DNA from: Tepidiforma thermophila
GTDB lineage: Bacteria > Chloroflexota > Dehalococcoidia > Tepidiformales > Tepidiformaceae
NCBI RefSeq assembly: GCF_002563855.1
Contig: NZ_PDJQ01000001.1
Location: forward strand, 1,488,001 to 1,552,000
Direction: 5' to 3'
Length of the DNA: 64,000 bases
Shown: positions 15,718 to 63,250 of the stretch, piece by piece
How the letters are laid out: the number at the start of each line of letters is the position of its first letter
Position numbering within the stretch: position 1 is the stretch's first letter
Position numbers and translations under genes: made by a program
The notes under the pieces: generated by a model
Seen by the model: the letters and a program-made list of their open reading frames with translations, nothing else
What the model was told of the DNA's origin: nothing
Database searches by the model: none

Positions 15718-17178
15718 CTAATTCCGCCCGTTCCCGAACAGCAGCGTGACCGTTTGCCCGCCCACCACGGTCGCCGTTTGCGGATTCGGCGTTGTCGGGA
15801 ACCAGCCCGTCTGCACCACCTCGGTCACGGTGTACTGCCCGGCTGGCAGGTTTACGCACACCCCGGGCGTCCCGGCTCCCCCGGTCGTAACTGACCCGAG
15901 CACCGTGCTCCCTTGGGCGATGGTGAATGTCCATCCCTGCAGGAACGGCTCATTCGTACCTTGCACCCCGTTCTGGTCCATGTCATAAAACTTCAGCACG
16001 CAGAGCGTCCCGTCGAGCGGGGTCGGGGTTGGCGTCGGTGTCGGCGTTAGCGTTGGTGTCGCCGTCGGGGTCGGTGTCTTCGTTGGTGTCGCCGTCGGCG
16101 TCGGCGTCTTGGTCGGCGTCGCCGTGGGGGTCGGTGTCTTCGTTGGTGTCGCTGTCGGCGTCGGCGTCTTCGTCGGGGTGGGCGTCTGCTTCGGCCCTAC
16201 CGTGCCGAATGCCGGGACCATCCCGGTCGGTGTCGGCGTCGCCGTTGGTGTCTGCTTCGGGCCGACCGTCGCAAACGCCGGCACCGTCCCCGCCGGCGTC
16301 GGCGTCCCGCCCGGCGGCACCACCGTAACCGGCAGCCCCCCGCCGATTCCTACCGTGCCCAGGGCCACTGGCGTCGGCGTGTTCGTTGGAGTGGGCGTGG
16401 GCGTCACCGAAGCCGGCTTGCATTTCCCGCTCGCGCCCGCCTGGAAAATCGTCTGGATCTCGTTCGCAGTCAGCGCCCGCTTGTAGAGCGAAAGCTCGTC
16501 CAGCTGGATGTCCGCACCGCCCGTGCTGACCTCGGCGGGAGCGTTCGTATCCAAATTCCCGGAAAACCACGTCGTGGCCGGTCCCGTCGCTACCTGCTGG
16601 CCGTCGACGTACCATCGCACGACGTTCGCTGTCCGGTCCACCGTCACGGCCAGGTGCCGCCATCCGCCGGTCGATATCGACCCGCTCGTTGGCGGCGGGC
16701 TGCTGTTGCTGCCGCTCTGCCGGAGGTACGCCTGGCCGTTCGCAGCGATAAGTCCGTACCCCGTCCCTGAGCTGTCCCGCTTTGCCAGGATCGTCGAAAT
16801 CGACGACACGGTGTTCCAGCGCAGCACCCAGGTCTCGATCGTGAAGTTCCCGGAGCCGACCTGCAGGTCCGCCTGCGACGCCGCCCATGCAAGGGTCATC
16901 GCCGGCCCGAGCTGCCATCCGCCCCCAACCTTTCCCGCTACAGGCACGTACGAGCCGCTCATGAATGCCAGGTCGTTCGGGAACCCCGCAATGTCGTGCG
17001 CAACGTTCCCCGACGTCTCATCGAACGGCCACCAGGCAACCAGGTCCGCCGGTGGCGGAACGCAGAAGGAGACCGGCGGACTGCCCCCGCCCCAGCACGC
17101 GCCCGCGGCGACTCCCGCCGCCACCAGCACGGCAGTCGCGGCCCGTGCGACCCCGGTTCGAAGAACACGCAGCAGCAT
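15718..17178 (-). CDS. Secreted LamG-domain protein with Thr-Pro repeat linker and B-type domain
   Basis: Exported surface protein of 486 residues. Residues 1-28 form a signal peptide ending at a possible lipoprotein Cys28. Residues 45-250 are a LamG/concanavalin-like jelly roll ([34 protein letters not shown]), a fold that binds glycans or proteins. Residues 255-387 are a Thr/Pro-rich stalk with two copies of a [14 protein letters not shown] unit and four copies of a 10-residue [10 protein letters not shown] unit. Residues 388-482 resemble an SdrD/Cna B-type domain ([15 protein letters not shown]). No C-terminal sorting signal is seen. A GGGAG-type ribosome-binding site precedes the ATG. Role in adhesion or cell-surface structure is inference. 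Confidence 0.85.
16018..16188 (-). repeat. In-frame 30-bp tandem repeats encoding a Thr-Pro stalk
   Basis: Encodes residues 331-387 of the LamG protein. The unit is 30 bp (10 residues, [10 protein letters not shown]), present about four times and followed by a shorter TP run. Repeats of this kind can change copy number by slippage without shifting the frame. Confidence 0.85.
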
Positions 17179-49901: not shown

Positions 49902-51074
49902 GTGCCAGCCCAGTTCGATGCCATCGTAGTCGGCGCCGGGCCTGCCGGGAGCACCGCCGCACGCGAACTCGCCGCCGCGGGCGCGCGGGTCCTCGTCCTC
50001 GATAAGGCCGAATTCCCCCGTTACAAGGCCTGCGGCGGCGGCATCCCCCGCCGCACTTCCCGGCTCCTTCCGTTCCCCATCGACCCCGTCGTCGAAGACG
50101 AGGTGGCCCTCCTCGACATCTCCCTCCACGGCCGCTGCCGGTTCGTCCGCGACTCCGGCGAGCCGTTCGCCGCAATGGTTATGCGCGAGCGATTTGACAC
50201 CCTCCTTCTCGACTACGCGCGCCGGGCCGGCGCCGAATTCCGCCCCCGCGCGGCCATCCGCGCGCTCGAACCGGACCCCACAGGCGTGACCGCCCGCGCC
50301 GAAGACGGCTTTTCCGCCCGCGCTGAAATACTCATCGCCGCCGACGGCGCCCACTCGCCGGTCGGCCGGATGGCCGGCCTCGGGACCGATCTGGCCGAGT
50401 GCGCCGCCTACGAGGTCGAAGTGCGTGCACCTGCAGCCCGGGTCCGCGCCAACCGCGCCACAGCGTTCATCGACCTGGGCTACCGCCCCTGGGGCTACGC
50501 GTGGCTCTTCCCAAAGGCCGAAGTCCTCTCCATCGGCATCGTCCTGCCCCCCGGACAGGCCGGTGAGATGAAGTCTCACGTCGCCGCCTACCTCCGCCGC
50601 CTCGGGCTCGACGGCGCGCCTGTCGACATCGCCCGCGGCCACAAAATTCGCTTCCGTCGCGGCCGCGAGCGCATCGCGTCCGAACGGGTACTCCTCGCCG
50701 GCGACGCCGCCGGCCTCGCCGACGAGTTCACTCAGGAGGGCATCTCCTACGCCATCGAGTCCGGGCGCATCGCTGCCCGCGCCGTCCTGCGGTCGCTCTC
50801 CTCGGGAGTACCGCTCCAGCGCTACCAGGACGACATTGACCGCGAGATCATGCCCGAGCTCCGCGCCGCCCGGGTGATTGCCCACATGTTCTACGGCATG
50901 CTCGGCCGATACCCCGGCCCCTGGATGCGCGCCACCCGCGCCATCCCGTACCTCTGGAGCGCCTTCTTCGCCGTCCAGCGCGGCGAATCCACCTACGCCC
51001 GCGAAGCTGCCCGCGTCCCGCTCCTTCCCGGCATCGCGGCCCGCCGCCTCGCCCGCCAGGACCGCGCCCGCTGA
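49902..51074 (+). CDS. Geranylgeranyl-reductase-family FAD oxidoreductase
   Basis: FAD-dependent reductase of 390 residues. The dinucleotide-binding motif VVGAGPAGSTAA is at residues 8-19, followed by the family KACGGGIPRR, and the second FAD motif GDAAGLADEFTQEGI near residue 265. Such enzymes saturate isoprenoid double bonds or act on menaquinone side chains. It is the first of a coupled pair with nth (TGATG overlap). The substrate is inference. Confidence 0.9.
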   Translation: MPAQFDAIVVGAGPAGSTAARELAAAGARVLVLDKAEFPRYKACGGGIPRRTSRLLPFPIDPVVEDEVALLDISLHGRCRFVRDSGEPFAAMVMRERFDTLLLDYARRAGAEFRPRAAIRALEPDPTGVTARAEDGFSARAEILIAADGAHSPVGRMAGLGTDLAECAAYEVEVRAPAARVRANRATAFIDLGYRPWGYAWLFPKAEVLSIGIVLPPGQAGEMKSHVAAYLRRLGLDGAPVDIARGHKIRFRRGRERIASERVLLAGDAAGLADEFTQEGISYAIESGRIAARAVLRSLSSGVPLQRYQDDIDREIMPELRAARVIAHMFYGMLGRYPGPWMRATRAIPYLWSAFFAVQRGESTYAREAARVPLLPGIAARRLARQDRAR

Positions 51075-57713: not shown

Positions 57714-58138
57714 TAGTCGACCACCTCGATGCCCATGCTCCGCGCCGTCCCTTCGATGATGCGCATCGCCTCTTCGATGGAGTTCGCATTCAGGTCCGGC
57801 AGCTTGGTCTCCGCAATCTTGCGGATGTCCTCCACGGTCACCCGGCCCACTTTGTTGAGCCGCGGATTGCCGCTCCCTTTCTCAATGCCCGCGGCCCGCC
57901 GGAGCAAATCGGCCGCCGGCGGCGTCTTCAGCACGAAGGTGAACGAGCGGTCCTCGTAGACCGTCAGCTGGGCCGGGATGATCAGCCCGATCTTGTCCTG
58001 CGTCCGAGCGTTGTACTCTTTGCAGAACTCCATGATGTTCACGCCGTGCTGGCCCAGCGCAGGGCCGACCGGCGGCGCCGGGTTCGCCTTCCCGGCGGGC
58101 AGCTGCAGTGTCAACACTGCCCGGACTTTCTTCGCCAA
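57713..58138 (-). CDS. rplK: 50S ribosomal protein L11
   Basis: L11 of the GTPase centre, 141 residues, the standard length. Start is TTG 58138, with AAGGAG 6 nt upstream, giving [18 protein letters not shown]; the N-terminal [23 protein letters not shown] motif and C-terminal rRNA-binding SMGIEVVD end are typical. A frame open to 58207 is not needed. Its promoter is at 58214-58242. Confidence 0.97.
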
Positions 58139-58213
58139 CGGAGTCTCCTTGTGTTCAAGCGGCGCAGGTCGCGCCTCCACGAGTCCCGCCCCTGCAGAGC
58201 GGGCCAACTACCA

Positions 58214-58242
58214 AGTATCGCGCCGTCCCGCCTCTCGAACAA
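58214..58242 (-). promoter_or_regulatory. rplK-rplA promoter
   Basis: On the minus strand, -35 TTGTTC (58237-58242), a 17-bp spacer and -10 GATACT (58214-58219). The predicted start near 58207 leaves a ~70-nt leader containing a GGCGC/GCGCC stem, which could hold an L1 control site. Confidence 0.6.
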
Positions 58243-58277
58243 TCACCCGTCCCGTGCCCCGACCGTCCTTCGCGCGC

Positions 58278-58314
58278 GGCAAACCGTTTGCCGTCGGTAA
58301 ACCTCGATTTACCG
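58278..58314. promoter_or_regulatory. Tandem palindromes in the rplK/ABC divergent region
   Basis: GGCAAAC-C-GTTTGCC (58278-58292) and CGGTAAA-N6-TTTACCG (58295-58314), both perfect. The left halves share GGYAAACC, repeated 18 bp apart. They lie between the rplK promoter and the -10 of the binding-protein gene, placed for a repressor or activator of either. Confidence 0.5.
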
Positions 58315-58325
58315 GAAAGACAGCT

Positions 58326-58365
58326 TCCCCGAATCGCCCTCGTGCGTATACTCCCCGAATCGCCC
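58326..58365 (+). promoter_or_regulatory. ABC-importer promoter flanked by a 14-bp direct repeat
   Basis: TCCCCGAATCGCCC occurs at 58326-58339 and again at 58352-58365, 26 bp apart start to start, flanking a TATACT -10 (58347-58352). The second copy begins on the last base of the -10. Predicted leader about 79 nt. Confidence 0.5.
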
Positions 58366-58437
58366 ATCCGTGTTCGATAGGCCCGATGAGCGCTATCGAC
58401 GCGGGGCGACACCAGCAAGGGGGGATTCTTCATCTCA

Positions 58438-60249
58438 ATGTCCGACAACTACTGGACCAGAAAGCTGGCCCGCCAGGGCATCAGCCGGCGCCGTGTCCTC
58501 GGCGGCGCCGCAACCGCAGGCATCGGAGCGGCAGCCCTCGGCCTCGTCGGCTGCGGCGACGATGACGACGATACCGGCAGCGGCTCCTCGACCGCGCCCG
58601 CCGGTACCGGGTCGCCCGCCGCAAGCCCGACCTCGGCGGCGCAGACCCCGCAGAAGGGCGGCGTCGCCCGCTTCGTCTCCGCCAACAACACGTGGGACAC
58701 CTTCGACGTCGATCGCAGCCGCTTCTCGCCGGTCGCCTGGCTCATGGGCATGACCAACCTTGGGGTCACCCAGTGGAAGAGCTTCACCAAAGCCGAGCTC
58801 GAAGGCGGCCTCGCTGAGAAGTGGGAGCAGCCCGACCCCAACACCATCGTCTTCACCATCCGCTCCAACGTCTTCTGGCACGATAAGCCGCCCGTGAACG
58901 GCCGCCAGGCGAACGCCGAAGACGTCGCCTTCTTCATCAACCGCAACAAGAACGGCAAGCTCCTCGACGGCACCGACGACCCCAACTTCTACCGCAAGTC
59001 GGCCTTCCAAAATGTCGATAAGGTCGAAGTCGTCGACAGCAAGACCGTCCGCGTGACCTTCTCGAAGCCCGACCCCTTCTTCCTCACAACCCTCGCCGGC
59101 TCCTACGCCAAGGTCCAGGCCCCTGAAGCCGTCCGCGCCTTCGAAAAGGACTACGCCAACATGAAGGCCGACCTCGTCATCGGGACCGGCGCATTTGTGC
59201 TGAAGAAGTGGTCCGCCGAGGGCGACTCCGAATGGGTCCGCCATGAGAAGTTCCACACCCAGGTCAACTGGGATGGCGTCAAGTGGCTCCCGCTCTTCAC
59301 CGACCAGTCGGCCCAGCAGGCTGCCTTCGAGCAGAAGCAGCTCGATGCCTTCACCCCAACCCAGAACCAGGTCATCCACGACCTCCTCAAGCGGTACGAA
59401 GGCCAAATCCACGAGGTCAAAATCTTCAGCGGCAACCCCCAGGCCGGCACCTACTACGGCGGCGCCGCCCCGTGGAACAACCCGAACCTCATCGGCGCCA
59501 TCTTCCGCGCCTTCGACCGCCGCGCCATCATCCAATCGCTCCTCCAGGGCAAGGCCGTCCTCTCGGGGAACGTCCCGCCGACCCAGGCGGCCTTCGCCAT
59601 CACCGAGAAAGAGCTCATCACCTACCCCGGCTACCTTGAGGACCGCGCGAAGGAAGAGGCCGAGGCGAAGAAGATGTGGGAAGCCGGCGGCGGTCCCGCC
59701 CTTGGGGACATCATCGTCGACATCCCCGACATCTGGGAGGGCCTCTACTCCGGCGGCGCCGCCCTCATCACCAACCAGCTCAAGAAGGTGCTGGGCAACA
59801 ACTTCGTTGCCAAGATCGAGCCCTACGCAACCATCACCGGCAAGATCGTCAAGCAGGAGTACGGCAACGGGAAGAACAACATCTGGTTCGGCTGGATCAC
59901 CGAGGTGTCCGATCCCGAGCCCACGCTCCTGAACTACCTCCAGTACAACTCGAGCCAGCCGCAGTTCCAGCAGTTCGGCGTCAAGATCGACAAGGTCGAC
60001 CAGCTCACCGCCCAGGCCGTGGTCGAGTTCGACATCGCCAAGCGCCAGGAGCTCTCCAAAGAGGTCATGCGCGAGCTCATCAAGAACTACGGCGCCGGCA
60101 TCCCGTACACCCTGGTCGCCGTCAACTCGTCCCTCCGCTGGAACTACCTCAAGTACCCTGAGGCCGTGGCCTTCGTCCAGCAGCACCAGTACGGCACTCA
60201 GTGGTGGTTCGACCAGACCGACCCGACCTGGCAGGGCCGGCCGGCCTAG
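58438..60249 (+). CDS. Oligopeptide-type ABC transporter substrate-binding lipoprotein (SBP family 5)
   Basis: Extracellular binding protein of 603 residues for peptides or similar solutes. It has a twin-arginine signal (SRRRVLGG, residues 16-23) and a lipobox ending at Cys39 (GLVGC), so it is exported folded by Tat and lipidated. An Asp-rich spacer and Pro/Thr linker lead to the family-5 domain (GGVARFVSA..., WEQPDPNTIVFTIRSNVFWHDKPPVNG). The ribosome-binding run AGGGGGGA is 12 nt before the ATG. Two permease genes follow; no ATPase gene is in the window. Confidence 0.93.
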   Translation: MSDNYWTRKLARQGISRRRVLGGAATAGIGAAALGLVGCGDDDDDTGSGSSTAPAGTGSPAASPTSAAQTPQKGGVARFVSANNTWDTFDVDRSRFSPVAWLMGMTNLGVTQWKSFTKAELEGGLAEKWEQPDPNTIVFTIRSNVFWHDKPPVNGRQANAEDVAFFINRNKNGKLLDGTDDPNFYRKSAFQNVDKVEVVDSKTVRVTFSKPDPFFLTTLAGSYAKVQAPEAVRAFEKDYANMKADLVIGTGAFVLKKWSAEGDSEWVRHEKFHTQVNWDGVKWLPLFTDQSAQQAAFEQKQLDAFTPTQNQVIHDLLKRYEGQIHEVKIFSGNPQAGTYYGGAAPWNNPNLIGAIFRAFDRRAIIQSLLQGKAVLSGNVPPTQAAFAITEKELITYPGYLEDRAKEEAEAKKMWEAGGGPALGDIIVDIPDIWEGLYSGGAALITNQLKKVLGNNFVAKIEPYATITGKIVKQEYGNGKNNIWFGWITEVSDPEPTLLNYLQYNSSQPQFQQFGVKIDKVDQLTAQAVVEFDIAKRQELSKEVMRELIKNYGAGIPYTLVAVNSSLRWNYLKYPEAVAFVQQHQYGTQWWFDQTDPTWQGRPA

Positions 60250-60338: not shown

Positions 60339-61310
60339 GTGAGGACGTACATTCTCCGCCGGGTAGTGGTGAATATCCCGGTCATCTGGCTCGTCGCCAC
60401 GCTCGTCTTTTTCGCCACAAGCGTTCTGCCCGGCGATTTCGTGGCCCAGCGCATCGCTGCCCAGGACCCGACCTCGACCGACCCGGCGCTCCGCCAGGCG
60501 CAGATCGACGCCGTCCGCAAAGACCTCGGCCTCGATAAGCCGGTTGTCCAGCGCTACTTCATCTACCTCGGGAACCTCCTCCGCGGCGACTTCGGCATCT
60601 CCTACCAGACGCGCGAGTCCGCCCTCCAGGGCATGAAAGAGGGATTGCCGTACTCCCTCCAGCTGGCGCTCATGTCGCTCGCAATCTCCATCCTCACCTC
60701 CATCCCTATCGGCATCATCTCGGCCATCCGCCAGGACTCCATCGTCGATTACGTCCTGCGCGTCTTTGCCATCCTCGTCCTCGCCATGCCCAACTTCTGG
60801 ATTGCAACCATGGCGCTCCTCTACGTCATACGGTGGAGCCTCTGGGAGGTGCCCATCAGCACCGCCCCCTTGCTCTGGGAAGACCCCGCTGCCAGTCTGC
60901 GCCTCTTCATCATCCCCGCCGTCGTCGGCGGGCTCGCCTCCGGCGCGGGCGTCATGCGCCTCCTCCGCTCCCAAATGCTCGAAGTGCTCCGCCAGGACTA
61001 CATCCGCACCGCCTGGGCCAAAGGCCTCCGCGAACGCGTCGTCATCATCCGCCACGCGCTCAAAAACGCCCTGGTTCCCGTCGTGACCGTGCTCGGTCTC
61101 TCTTTTGCGGGGCTCCTCTCCGGCAACGTCGTCTTTGAGAACCTGTTTGCCATCCCTGGGGTCGGCAGGCGCATTCTCGCAGCCATCGTCGCCCGCGACG
61201 TGCCCGTTGTGCAGGCCTTCGTCCTCGTCATCGCCACCTTCGTCGTCTTCGTCAACCTCGCGATCGACCTCCTCTACGGTGTCCTCGATCCGCGCATCCG
61301 GTACTCCTAG
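60339..61310 (+). CDS. ABC transporter permease (DppB/OppB type)
   Basis: Membrane permease of 323 residues with six helices. Typical N-terminus (RTYILRRVVVNIPVIWLVATLVFF), the long first periplasmic loop with LGLDKPVVQRY and RGDFGISYQT, and the cytoplasmic EAA-type loop (RTAWAKGLRERVVIIRHAL). GTG 60339 with a GGGGG ribosome-binding run is the start; the open frame upstream is not family-like. Confidence 0.93.
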   Translation: MRTYILRRVVVNIPVIWLVATLVFFATSVLPGDFVAQRIAAQDPTSTDPALRQAQIDAVRKDLGLDKPVVQRYFIYLGNLLRGDFGISYQTRESALQGMKEGLPYSLQLALMSLAISILTSIPIGIISAIRQDSIVDYVLRVFAILVLAMPNFWIATMALLYVIRWSLWEVPISTAPLLWEDPAASLRLFIIPAVVGGLASGAGVMRLLRSQMLEVLRQDYIRTAWAKGLRERVVIIRHALKNALVPVVTVLGLSFAGLLSGNVVFENLFAIPGVGRRILAAIVARDVPVVQAFVLVIATFVVFVNLAIDLLYGVLDPRIRYS

Positions 61311-61321
61311 GAGAAGCTGCC

Positions 61322-62362
61322 ATGGCCCAGGAACAGGCAATCCTCGATCGCCCCGGCACCCTCGGTATGCCGCGCAGCCTCAGCGACCGCCCGATGCTCG
61401 TTCGGGCGCTCGTCCATATCGGCCGCTTCTTCCGCTATAAGCCCCTCGGCGGCGTGGGGGTCTTCATCATTGCCCTCTGTGTCTTCGCCGCCCTCTTTGC
61501 CGACGTCGTCGACCGCTACGACCCGGAGGCGATCTTCAAAGCTCCCAACCCGGAGTACGATCCCGAGCTCGCCGAAAAGGCGCTCATTGACCCCACCGTC
61601 CGCCTGCAGTACCCGCCCGAAAAACTCGAAAAAAACGACATCCCCATCAAGTTCGGCGGCCCCACCGCCGACCACTGGCTCGGTACCGATGGACTTGGCC
61701 GCGACCTCTACTCGCGTATCGTCCATGGTTCGCGCACGGCCCTCTACGTCGGCCTCGGCGCTGCCCTCATCGCCACGATTAGCGGAACCATCGTCGGTCT
61801 CGCCAGTGCCTACTTCGGCGGCTTCGTCGATTTCTTCATCCAGCGCATCGTCGATACGCTCCAGGCCTTCCCGCCGCTCGTCCTGCTCCTGCTGTTTGGC
61901 CAGGTCGTCGCAAACCCCACACTCACCGTGAACACCATTGCGCTCGGCATCTTAGGCACCGCCAGTTCCGCCCGTGTTGTGCGAAGTGCCGTGCTTGCCG
62001 TGCGCGAAGAGGTCTACGTGCTTGCCGCCCGCACCATCGGCGCCAGCGACCTCCGCGTGATGATGCGGCACATCTTCCCCAACATCACGGCGCCGATCAT
62101 CGTCACGTTCACCAGCTCGATCGGCATCTACATCCTCGTCGAAGCCACGCTCGCCTTCCTCGGGCTGGGCGACCCAACGCGCATCTCCTGGGGCAAGATG
62201 GTCGAGGAAGGCCGTCGGAACGGTCCGTCCGACCCCTGGATGGCCTTCATCGTCGGCATGGCCCTGACAATGGTCGTTCTCGGCTTCAACCTGGCGGGAG
62301 ACGCACTTCGCGACGTCCTCGACCCGCGCCTCCGGGGCCGCGGAGGCCGCGCCGGCTTCTAA
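61322..62362 (+). CDS. ABC transporter permease (DppC/OppC type)
   Basis: Partner permease of 346 residues. After a cytoplasmic N-tail and the first helix comes an unusually long periplasmic insertion (about residues 65-115) before the HWLGTDGLGRDLYSRIVHGSR motif that normally follows directly. The EAA loop is RTIGASDLRVMMRHIFPN. GGAG precedes the ATG, 11 bp after the DppB-like stop. Confidence 0.92.
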   Translation: MAQEQAILDRPGTLGMPRSLSDRPMLVRALVHIGRFFRYKPLGGVGVFIIALCVFAALFADVVDRYDPEAIFKAPNPEYDPELAEKALIDPTVRLQYPPEKLEKNDIPIKFGGPTADHWLGTDGLGRDLYSRIVHGSRTALYVGLGAALIATISGTIVGLASAYFGGFVDFFIQRIVDTLQAFPPLVLLLLFGQVVANPTLTVNTIALGILGTASSARVVRSAVLAVREEVYVLAARTIGASDLRVMMRHIFPNITAPIIVTFTSSIGIYILVEATLAFLGLGDPTRISWGKMVEEGRRNGPSDPWMAFIVGMALTMVVLGFNLAGDALRDVLDPRLRGRGGRAGF

Positions 62363-62482
62363 CAGGCCGGTCGCGATCTCCCGGCGGTGGCGCCCGCGCA
62401 GTGGATGCCGCAACGCCCTCCCGGGGCCTCACCCGGCGCCCTTCCGGCGCAAACCCCCTCCTGGCGCAGAGTCGCACACATC

Positions 62483-62521
62483 AAAAAAGCAACCGCCCCG
62501 GCCGATTCCGGCCGGGGCGGT
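62483..62521 (-). terminator. Strong Rho-independent terminator after nusG
   Basis: On the minus strand, a 12-bp stem ACCGCCCCGGCC/GGCCGGGGCGGT (62492-62521) with loop GGAATC is followed by TGC and TTTTTT (62483-62488). It ends the tuf-rpmG-secE-nusG side before the opposing ABC genes. Confidence 0.85.
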
Positions 62522-62569
62522 CTGGCGTGCTACAGACGGCGGCCCACAAGGGGCACCGTGCGCTCTCGC

Positions 62570-63250
62570 TTAGACCCGTTCCACCTGGAGGAAGTCCAGC
62601 TCCACCGGGGTCTCCCTCCCGAACATGTTGACGATGACCTTCACGCGGCCCTTTTCCGTGTTGATCTCGTCCACAACGCCAACGAAATCCTCGAACGGGC
62701 CGTCAACGATGCGCACCGACTGTCCCGGCTGGAAGGCCACCCGGACGCGCGGCTGCTCCATGCGCATCGCGCGGAGGATATGGTTCACCTCCTCCTGCGA
62801 CAGCGGCACCGGCCGCGTGCCCGAGCTGACGAACCCCGTCACGCCGGTCGTATTGCGAATGAGGTGCCACGCTGCATCCGAAGCGGGGTCGCCCTCTTTT
62901 AGCTCAATGGTCTGCACCAGCACATAGCCGGGGTAGAGCTTCCGCTTCACGGTCCGCCGCTGGCCGTCGCGGATTTCAATTTCATCCTCCGTAGGGACAA
63001 CCACATGGAAGATCTTGTCGCCGGCGTCCATGCGCTCCACCGTCGCTTTGATGGCGTTGCGCACCTTGTTCTCGTGCCCGCTGTACGTGTGCACGAAGTA
63101 CCACTTCCGCCCGGGCGCGTTGATCTCCTCGTCGGTGAGCTGCTCCTGCTCGAGTTCGTCCTCAGTCTTGCGGCGCCGCGCCGGCCGCTTCGCGGGCTGG
63201 CTGGGACTGATGCCGGAGAGCGCAGTAATCGGCTTCTGTTCGTCGGTCAT
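62570..63250 (-). CDS. nusG: Transcription termination/antitermination protein NusG
   Basis: RNA-polymerase-binding elongation factor of 226 residues. A ~45-residue charged N-terminal extension (RRRKTEDELEQEQLTDEE) precedes the NGN domain (WYFVHTYSGHENKVRNAI, KRKLYPGYVLV) and the C-terminal KOW domain (GQSVRIVDGPFEDFVGVVDEIN). It starts 2 bp after secE. Confidence 0.96.
   Translation of the reverse strand: MTDEQKPITALSGISPSQPAKRPARRRKTEDELEQEQLTDEEINAPGRKWYFVHTYSGHENKVRNAIKATVERMDAGDKIFHVVVPTEDEIEIRDGQRRTVKRKLYPGYVLVQTIELKEGDPASDAAWHLIRNTTGVTGFVSSGTRPVPLSQEEVNHILRAMRMEQPRVRVAFQPGQSVRIVDGPFEDFVGVVDEINTEKGRVKVIVNMFGRETPVELDFLQVERV

Follow-up and report, generated by a model that had tools for sequence, protein, structure and literature searches.

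A conserved candidate operator and an mRNA leader hairpin at an importer promoter divergent from rplK in Tepidiforma

Opp/Dpp/Nik-type ABC importer operons combine an SBP_bac_5 solute-binding protein with two BPD_transp_1 permeases, a combination also present in the DNA analysed here. Two other described systems resemble parts of the region upstream of this importer. The TetR-family protein TTHB023/PfmR of Thermus thermophilus recognizes the operator 5'-TACCGACCGNTNGGTN-3' (Agari et al., as quoted in an excerpt of PMC7022988), a short palindrome with inverted half-sites of the TACCG..CGGT type, and the sites covered in that excerpt map to promoters of fatty-acid genes (PMC7022988). The 5'-terminal stabilising stem-loops of Escherichia coli ompA and papA and Bacillus subtilis aprE (titles cited in PMC3997798) lie at the extreme 5' position of the mRNA and keep structure over sequence. 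On gene regulation in Tepidiforma, bacteria of hot springs, the open-access literature gave us little. Searches of that literature on Tepidiforma, Chloroflexota importer regulation and TTACCG-type palindromes returned no description of the site or motif reported below among the matches listed, and no paper on GGTAAA/TTTACC operators; within the portion of PMC10284905 covered by a term search there was one peptide passage, and no promoter, operon or ABC transporter.

The window, the whole 64,000-nucleotide stretch that was analysed, belongs to a Tepidiforma thermophila genome of 2,743,337 bases in a single contig. Its 230-bp gap at 58208–58437 has minus-strand rplK (Ribosomal_L11) and then rplA on one side, and the SBP_bac_5 protein and two BPD_transp_1 permeases on the plus-strand side. 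The mechanically listed rplK ORF starts earlier, at 58207, than the start codon we read from the sequence. The coding features beside the gap are:

58136 to 58138, minus strand: probable rplK start codon (TTG), with an AAGGAG Shine-Dalgarno sequence 6 bases 5' and the L11 domains downstream
58438 to 60249, plus strand: SBP_bac_5 solute-binding protein (Pfam PF00496, E 6e-39)
60339 to 61310, plus strand: permease 1, BPD_transp_1, Opp/Nik B type (profile searches from 60201 and 60345; start codon at 60339 chosen by eye)
61322 to 62362, plus strand: permease 2, BPD_transp_1, Opp/Nik C type (profile searches)

By eye, the solute-binding protein carries a Tat-like RR motif and a lipobox; against the PDB it shows a distant likeness to dipeptide-, oligopeptide- and heme-binding proteins. 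Tepidiforma flava and two Tepidiforma sp. assemblies are among the named records nearest to the importer (89–90% identity). In NCBIfam, the permeases fall among Opp/Nik types, with no cut-off reached. Inspection of 60339–62570 by eye revealed no ATPase gene ahead of an opposite-strand NusG-like ORF, and since none follows the operon before that ORF, the importer may borrow its ATPase from elsewhere. DNA of the gap was matched in 6 of 41 genomes, all Tepidiforma, and in none outside the genus. Our comparison set comprises six Tepidiforma genomes, the window's own and five of the same genus, which by similarity amount to about four independent lineages.

The initial annotation had singled out this gap for two perfect palindromes sharing GGYAAACC and a 14-bp direct repeat flanking a TATACT −10. 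These elements are placed as follows, palindrome 1 starting one base to the left of its earlier placement:

58277 to 58293, no strand: palindrome 1, CGGCAAAC-C-GTTTGCCG, arms of 8 and spacer of 1, perfect solely in the window genome
58295 to 58314, no strand: palindrome 2, the proposed operator, CGGTAAA-CCTCGA-TTTACCG, arms of 7 and spacer of 6
58326 to 58339, plus strand: direct repeat copy 1, TCCCCGAATCGCCC, inside the −35/−10 spacer
58347 to 58352, plus strand: importer −10, TATACT, invariant at 6 of 6 columns
58352 to 58365, plus strand: direct repeat copy 2, TCCCCGAATCGCCC, in which TCGCCC forms the 5' side of the leader hairpin

The palindromes do have GGYAAACC in common and the 14-bp copies do flank TATACT (58347–58352), an arrangement beyond chance. 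Of 3000 dinucleotide shuffles of the gap (58208–58437), 2 contained a non-overlapping palindrome pair (arms of 7 or more) within 40 bp, and 7 contained a direct repeat of 12 bp or longer within 60 bp; both criteria were set post hoc, the repeats having already been seen, and the counts indicate an unusual sequence rather than function. Such palindrome pairs occur at three places in the 64-kb window; the other two begin at 50219 and 58076 and both lie within ORFs, the latter inside rplK. The pattern CGGYAAAN{0,8}TTTRCCG matched solely palindromes 1 and 2 in the 2.74-Mb genome, with one place for the reversed control. Repeated 14-mers within 60 bp occur at two places in the window, the second being a tract at 16051–16170 of short tandem-like repeats, GTTGGTGTCGCCGT and others recurring within 60 bp.

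Phylogenetic footprinting within the genus, which had been proposed as a check, supports palindrome 2. Together with its right flank, it is a single-copy, genus-conserved element at a fixed promoter distance, operator-like in its sequence. Five of the six Tepidiforma genomes have a single exact GGTAAA-N6-TTTACC, always at the importer promoter; allowing one mismatch gives 10 places in six genomes (vs. 2 for the reversed control), adding one place per genome in the five with an exact match. In the six-genome alignment, 14 of 20 columns are invariant in palindrome 2, 7 of 17 in palindrome 1 and 6 of 6 in TATACT. The arms of palindrome 2 pair at 7 of 7 positions in four genomes, at 6 of 7 in G002 and at 4 of 7 in G005, where the left arm is lost; in G001, G003 and G004 they read CCGGTAAA-N6-TTTACCGG, with arms of at least 8 bp. 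Five genomes retain the left arm despite a change in the spacer triplet, which is CCT in G000 and G004 and AGG in the other four. In all six genomes there is almost no change in the right arm or in the 15 bp that follow it, and TTTACCGGAARGAYRRCTTCC, which adjoins palindrome 2, has one match per genome in 6 of 6, at this place, even at up to 3 mismatches. The distance to TATACT is 39 bp from TTTACC (6 of 6) and 51 bp from GGTAAA (5 of 5). The conserved stretch extends to the importer −35:

58305 to 58330, plus strand: most conserved block, CGATTTACCGGAARGAYRRCTTCCCC, with 58307 to 58330 invariant at 20 of 24 columns (six genomes aligned)
58325 to 58330, plus strand: putative importer −35, TTCCCC, weak (matches TTGACA at 3 of 6 positions), with a 16-bp spacer to the −10, conserved in six genomes

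Palindrome 1 and the direct repeat, which had likewise been taken for operator elements, are each perfect in one of the six genomes. Palindrome 1 pairs at 8 of 8 positions in the window and at 4–5 of 8 in the other five genomes; the copies of the direct repeat are identical at 14 of 14 positions in the window and at 9–12 of 14 elsewhere, and copy 2 also supplies the 5' side of the conserved leader hairpin. On these grounds the direct repeat is not supported as an operator element, and it is unlikely that palindromes 1 and 2, with spacers of 1 and 6, are twin sites for one dimer. The distal region of G004 and G005 contains tandem repeats of 18 bp and 17 bp, suggesting duplicated half-sites of this kind as the source of palindrome 1. 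The repeats that matter are probably palindrome 2 and its flank, and not palindrome 1 or the direct repeat.

A separate promoter lies on the rplK side of the gap:

58214 to 58242, minus strand: putative rplK promoter, TTGTTC-17-GATACT, with GATACT at the aligned place in six genomes

TTGYYC-17-GATACT is found in all six Tepidiforma genomes. The rplK −10, read as AGTATC in plus-strand sequence, is 133, 133, 134, 134, 135 and 151 bp away from TATACT, the last in G005; the rplK side of the gap undergoes small length changes, with 16–18 extra bases in G005. Because its distances to the importer TATACT are fixed and the rplK-side distance varies, the conserved element travels with the importer promoter, and the effect on rplK that had been raised as a possibility is unsupported. 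Scanning 58100–58500 for sigma-70 promoters and terminators gave no match. Homologous promoters such as L075, L079 and L130 read TTGACA-16-TATACT and, by eye, are without the conserved block. Activated promoters combine a weak −35 with a conserved upstream block; as the importer −35 is weak and the conserved block touches it, the sequence leads us to lean slightly towards activation over repression.

Downstream of TATACT, the transcript is predicted to begin with a hairpin:

58360 to 58409, plus strand: 5'-terminal leader hairpin, outer pairs 58360–58365 with 58404–58409, with covariation in six orthologues

Leaders able to form a hairpin directly follow TATACT in all six Tepidiforma genomes. 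In the alignment of the orthologues, from which the structure had itself been predicted, 94.8% of pair cells pair (slid controls, 38–51%), and five cells show compensatory change, a number reached by 0 of 500 shuffles. Both partners have changed in three pairs (11 of 500 shuffles), the number of further pair types is nothing out of the ordinary (163 of 500), and 8 of the 16 pairs are invariant. Over 60 nt, the window folds with z −2.8 and the five orthologues with z between −1.4 and −4.4; the longer leader 58354–58440 folds unexceptionally (z −1.4, 21 of 200 shuffles as good). Over 48 nt, no more than 3.3% of shuffles equal the folding of any of the 11 Tepidiforma leaders, and strong hairpins are also present in a paralogous importer (five genomes) and in the rplK-linked copy of G024. 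A criterion based on 5'-hairpin shape was abandoned as non-discriminating (21–52% of shuffles pass and 8 of 24 leaders fail); the window and G004 leaders fail it, their hairpins exceeding the 48-nt cut, and the energy comparison is the sole informative measure of leader folding. Among more distant SBP_5 leaders, L050, L071, L072, L073, L075, L078, L079, L127 and L142 show no significant excess folding; L130 is an exception (shuffle fraction 0.020), L081 is borderline (0.053), and L070 reaches 0.033 in 48-nt shuffles but z −0.6 over 60 nt. We claim the hairpin for Tepidiforma and the rplK-linked copy of G024, and less firmly for G046.

An Rfam search of 57900–58700 gave four weak matches, all far below the gathering score, and the leader sequences are too divergent for a covariance model. 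The leader of the second SBP_5 gene (L124, L125, L045, L048, L055) opens with a strong stem unlike the window hairpin in sequence, with 15 consecutive pairs in G001 and G003. A pattern of this paralogue hairpin, TCTATNGCNGCTATAG, marks the paralogue in five Tepidiforma genomes and its homologues in G046 and G012, other matches being no more numerous than in the control. With a transcription start at about 58358–58359, as predicted from TATACT, the conserved hairpin of the window would open a few bases into the transcript, and by analogy with ompA-type leaders its likeliest role would be protection of the 5' end of the mRNA.

Among 24 family rplK loci (1.5 kb flanks, some reaching contig ends), an importer is divergent to rplK in 7, namely the six Tepidiforma genomes and G024. 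The same linkage occurs in G046, outside those 24, giving eight genomes in two genera, as G046 and G024 belong to another genus. Relative to TATACT, G046 has GGTAAG at −50 (−51 in the window) and G024 has CTTACC at −34, with no comparable palindrome in the rplK-linked promoter of G024. Since the left arm is lost in G005 and G024 is without such a palindrome, the palindrome 2 site, as judged from these sequences, is not universal.

For a wider comparison, 68 SBP_5 upstream regions were examined and reduced to 36 by removal of 19 without a Shine-Dalgarno-like sequence and 13 near-duplicates. The most over-represented 7-mer was GTATACT (14 vs. 0.23 expected). CGGTAAA, outranked solely by promoter-core 7-mers, was present in 8 of 36 regions (0.67 expected), three of the eight being Tepidiforma orthologues. 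GGTAAR or its complement, a motif picked after the window had been seen, lies upstream in 6 of 14 TATACT promoters (1 of 5000 shuffles), and in 3 of 11 when rplK-linked promoters are excluded (118 of 5000); GGTAAA, CGGTAA and CGGTTC tie as the commonest hexamers, at 4 of 14 each. The number of GGTAAA-N(30-60)-GTATACT matches in the family is uninformative (9 vs. 7 for the reversed control); 7 of the 9 are at SBP_5 promoters, and their location alone favours the motif.

One-mismatch matches to palindrome 2 led to a Peripla_BP_6 importer gene. Its promoter (L205–L209, L216) in G001, G002, G003 and G005 has YTTACC-N4-GGTAAR just upstream of TTGACC-18-TAGGAT, and the palindrome of G000 and G004, TTACC-N4-GGTAA, is located in the transcribed leader near the ribosome-binding site. 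On its sequence, this is site turnover at an orthologous gene. In G001 the gene (L216, L225) is matched in two overlapping pieces in different frames, by frameshift or assembly error.

Across 38 family genomes the related form TTACCNNNNGGTAA was counted at 68 places (reversed control, 20), and in the six Tepidiforma genomes at 19 (control, 3); 23 of the 38 genomes carry the motif, and nine genomes of genus g13 have 0 places. We viewed 60 fetched loci, five further places and one inside L297, leaving out two in G013; by a crude ORF scan, 18 of the 60 loci have a long ORF across the site, and some sites may be chance. Pfam searches on 20 flanking proteins chosen by eye identified seven SBP_bac_5, two SBP_bac_3 and one Peripla_BP_6 protein, three acyl-CoA dehydrogenases, and an AMP-binding (acyl-CoA ligase-like) enzyme, a P450, an ABC exporter, an Mrp-type ATPase and a dihydroorotate dehydrogenase, with no Pfam match for two of the 20. 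Judged by look-alike starts, the divergent Mrp/PyrD pair, acyl-CoA dehydrogenases and P450s recur across several genomes. The TTACCG-N2-CGGTAA sites thus define a candidate importer/acyl-CoA regulon, at loci such as L278–L282 (window genome), L264, L310, L314, L268, L317, L315 and L291. A conserved protein of ~347 aa (start LDLSWLNL or similar) stands beside TTACC-N4-GGTAA in five genomes (L281, L290, L256, L262, L313) and has a faint likeness to R2-like oxidases, far below the cut-off. The broader TTACC-N(2-10)-GGTAA with a loose −10 showed no enrichment in 24 family genomes (44 vs. 47 for the control among the matches listed), with noise elsewhere.

No exact TTACCG-N2-CGGTAA is present in the importer promoter, nor the two-base-centre consensus. 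Palindrome 2 is CGGTAA-N8-TTACCG, its half-sites in the opposite order to a standard dimer site. A matrix built from 49 distinct sites of 59 of the 60 loci (L279, with its site inside long ORFs, was left out) was applied to the promoter:

58284 to 58303, plus strand: best family-motif match in the importer promoter, score 8.6 (maximum 26.4), p 0.03

This match joins palindrome 1's right half to palindrome 2's left half. The corresponding place scores best in G004, G001 and G003 too (11.1, p 0.003–0.013) and, weakly, in G002 (p 0.13); in G005 it does not. At p 0.05 the matrix matched 7 of 36 SBP_5 regions (30 permuted matrices: mean 2.4, maximum 8, one control at 7 or above), and at p 0.02 it matched 4 of 36 (mean 0.9, two controls equal). 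Membership of the window in the family motif is suggestive, not proof.

On balance, 58277–58365 is likely to be the upstream control region and start site of the importer promoter, with palindrome 2 and its right flank (58295–58330) as the operator of a putative dimeric regulator and a stem-loop in the mRNA. The direct basis for this reading is conservation, uniqueness, fixed spacing and hairpin covariation, from which protein binding, its sign, the transcription start and the function of the hairpin are inferred. Most likely, a dimeric transcription factor would bind GGTAAA-N6-TTTACC, centred ~54 bp upstream of the presumed transcription start. The operator would adjoin the weak −35 of TTCCCC-16-TATACT, and the factor would adjust importer transcription to nutrient supply. 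The distal part with palindrome 1 would evolve fast, partly via 17–18 bp tandem duplications, and the transcript would most likely open with a stem-loop protecting the mRNA or tuning translation. With its own promoter, rplK is probably not a target. The earlier proposal of a dedicated importer regulator holds insofar as palindrome 2 is operator-like and its exact arrangement occurs solely here in the six genomes; "dedicated" is unproven, as GGTAA/TTACC half-sites also precede other family importer genes.

Several observations bear on other readings. Counting against an operator, the invariant block extends beyond the palindrome and lacks its symmetry, and RNA polymerase might bind it as a promoter element. 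The block would then be the upstream part of a core promoter with a non-standard −35 and polymerase contacts, the palindromes being incidental and no regulator involved. The most conserved stretch does run into the −35, G005 has lost the left arm and other SBP_5 promoters are without the palindrome; we nevertheless think this rather improbable, as several family homologues use TTGACA-16-TATACT without the block (by eye), both arms lie upstream of the −35, and five of the six genomes retain the left arm though neighbouring bases change. Control of rplK (ribosomal protein operon), or of both genes, would suit repeats lying between two promoters whose divergent linkage extends to eight genomes and two genera, but the fixed importer −10 spacing, the variable rplK side with its 16–18 added bases in G005, and the poor conservation of 58238–58267 beside the rplK promoter (4–5 invariant columns per 20) make it highly improbable. 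Also very unlikely is that the downstream hairpin acts as DNA, an operator formed by a second palindrome across the start site, and not as RNA: the start site does carry a long inverted repeat, half of its 16 pairs are invariant and the paralogue arms are near-identical within the genus, but the apical part and the sequence differ between lineages and paralogues with pairing kept, which suits RNA better.

A further reading, which we consider less likely than not, is that the regulator of TTACCG-N2-CGGTAA (TetR-like by form) binds here through degenerate or rearranged half-sites, at 58284–58303 and/or at the CGGTAA and TTACCG of palindrome 2, and that the importer belongs to the wider importer/acyl-CoA regulon. 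The family-wide enrichment of TTACCNNNNGGTAA before seven SBP_5, two SBP_3, Peripla_BP_6 and acyl-CoA genes, the excess of CGGTAAA upstream of SBP_5 genes and the recurrence of 58284–58303 as the best matrix place in G004, G001 and G003 argue for it. Against it, the window match is weak, the 7 of 36 SBP_5 regions at p 0.05 stay within the permuted-matrix maximum, the reversed half-sites of palindrome 2 imply a different dimer geometry, three of the eight CGGTAAA regions are Tepidiforma orthologues, and the broader motif is unenriched. More speculatively, and to our minds improbably, such a regulon of this Dehalococcoidia family, read via CGGTAA half-sites, would couple peptide/amino-acid uptake (SBP_5, SBP_3 and Peripla_BP_6 importers) to acyl-CoA breakdown, with the rplK-linked operator rebuilt from TTACCG-N2-CGGTAA to CGGTAA-N8-TTACCG; if true, this would be turnover of operator geometry at an orthologous promoter, that of the rplK-linked importer. 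The operator itself would be an ordinary kind of genetic switch; the possible importer/acyl-CoA regulon is the more interesting lead. A conserved candidate operator, with a sister motif before importer and acyl-CoA genes, offers a concrete handle on regulator and regulon.

Set beside the known systems, the importer differs from Opp/Dpp/Nik-type operons in matching no NCBIfam entry at cut-off and in the ATPase gene, none having been noticed by eye behind the permeases. Its leader hairpin differs from the ompA, papA and aprE stem-loops in that the transcription start is inferred and the stabilising effect putative. Compared with the TTHB023/PfmR operator, CGGTAA-N8-TTACCG of the window has its half-sites in reversed order and matches TTACCG-N2-CGGTAA weakly, and the candidate targets of the motif here include importers.
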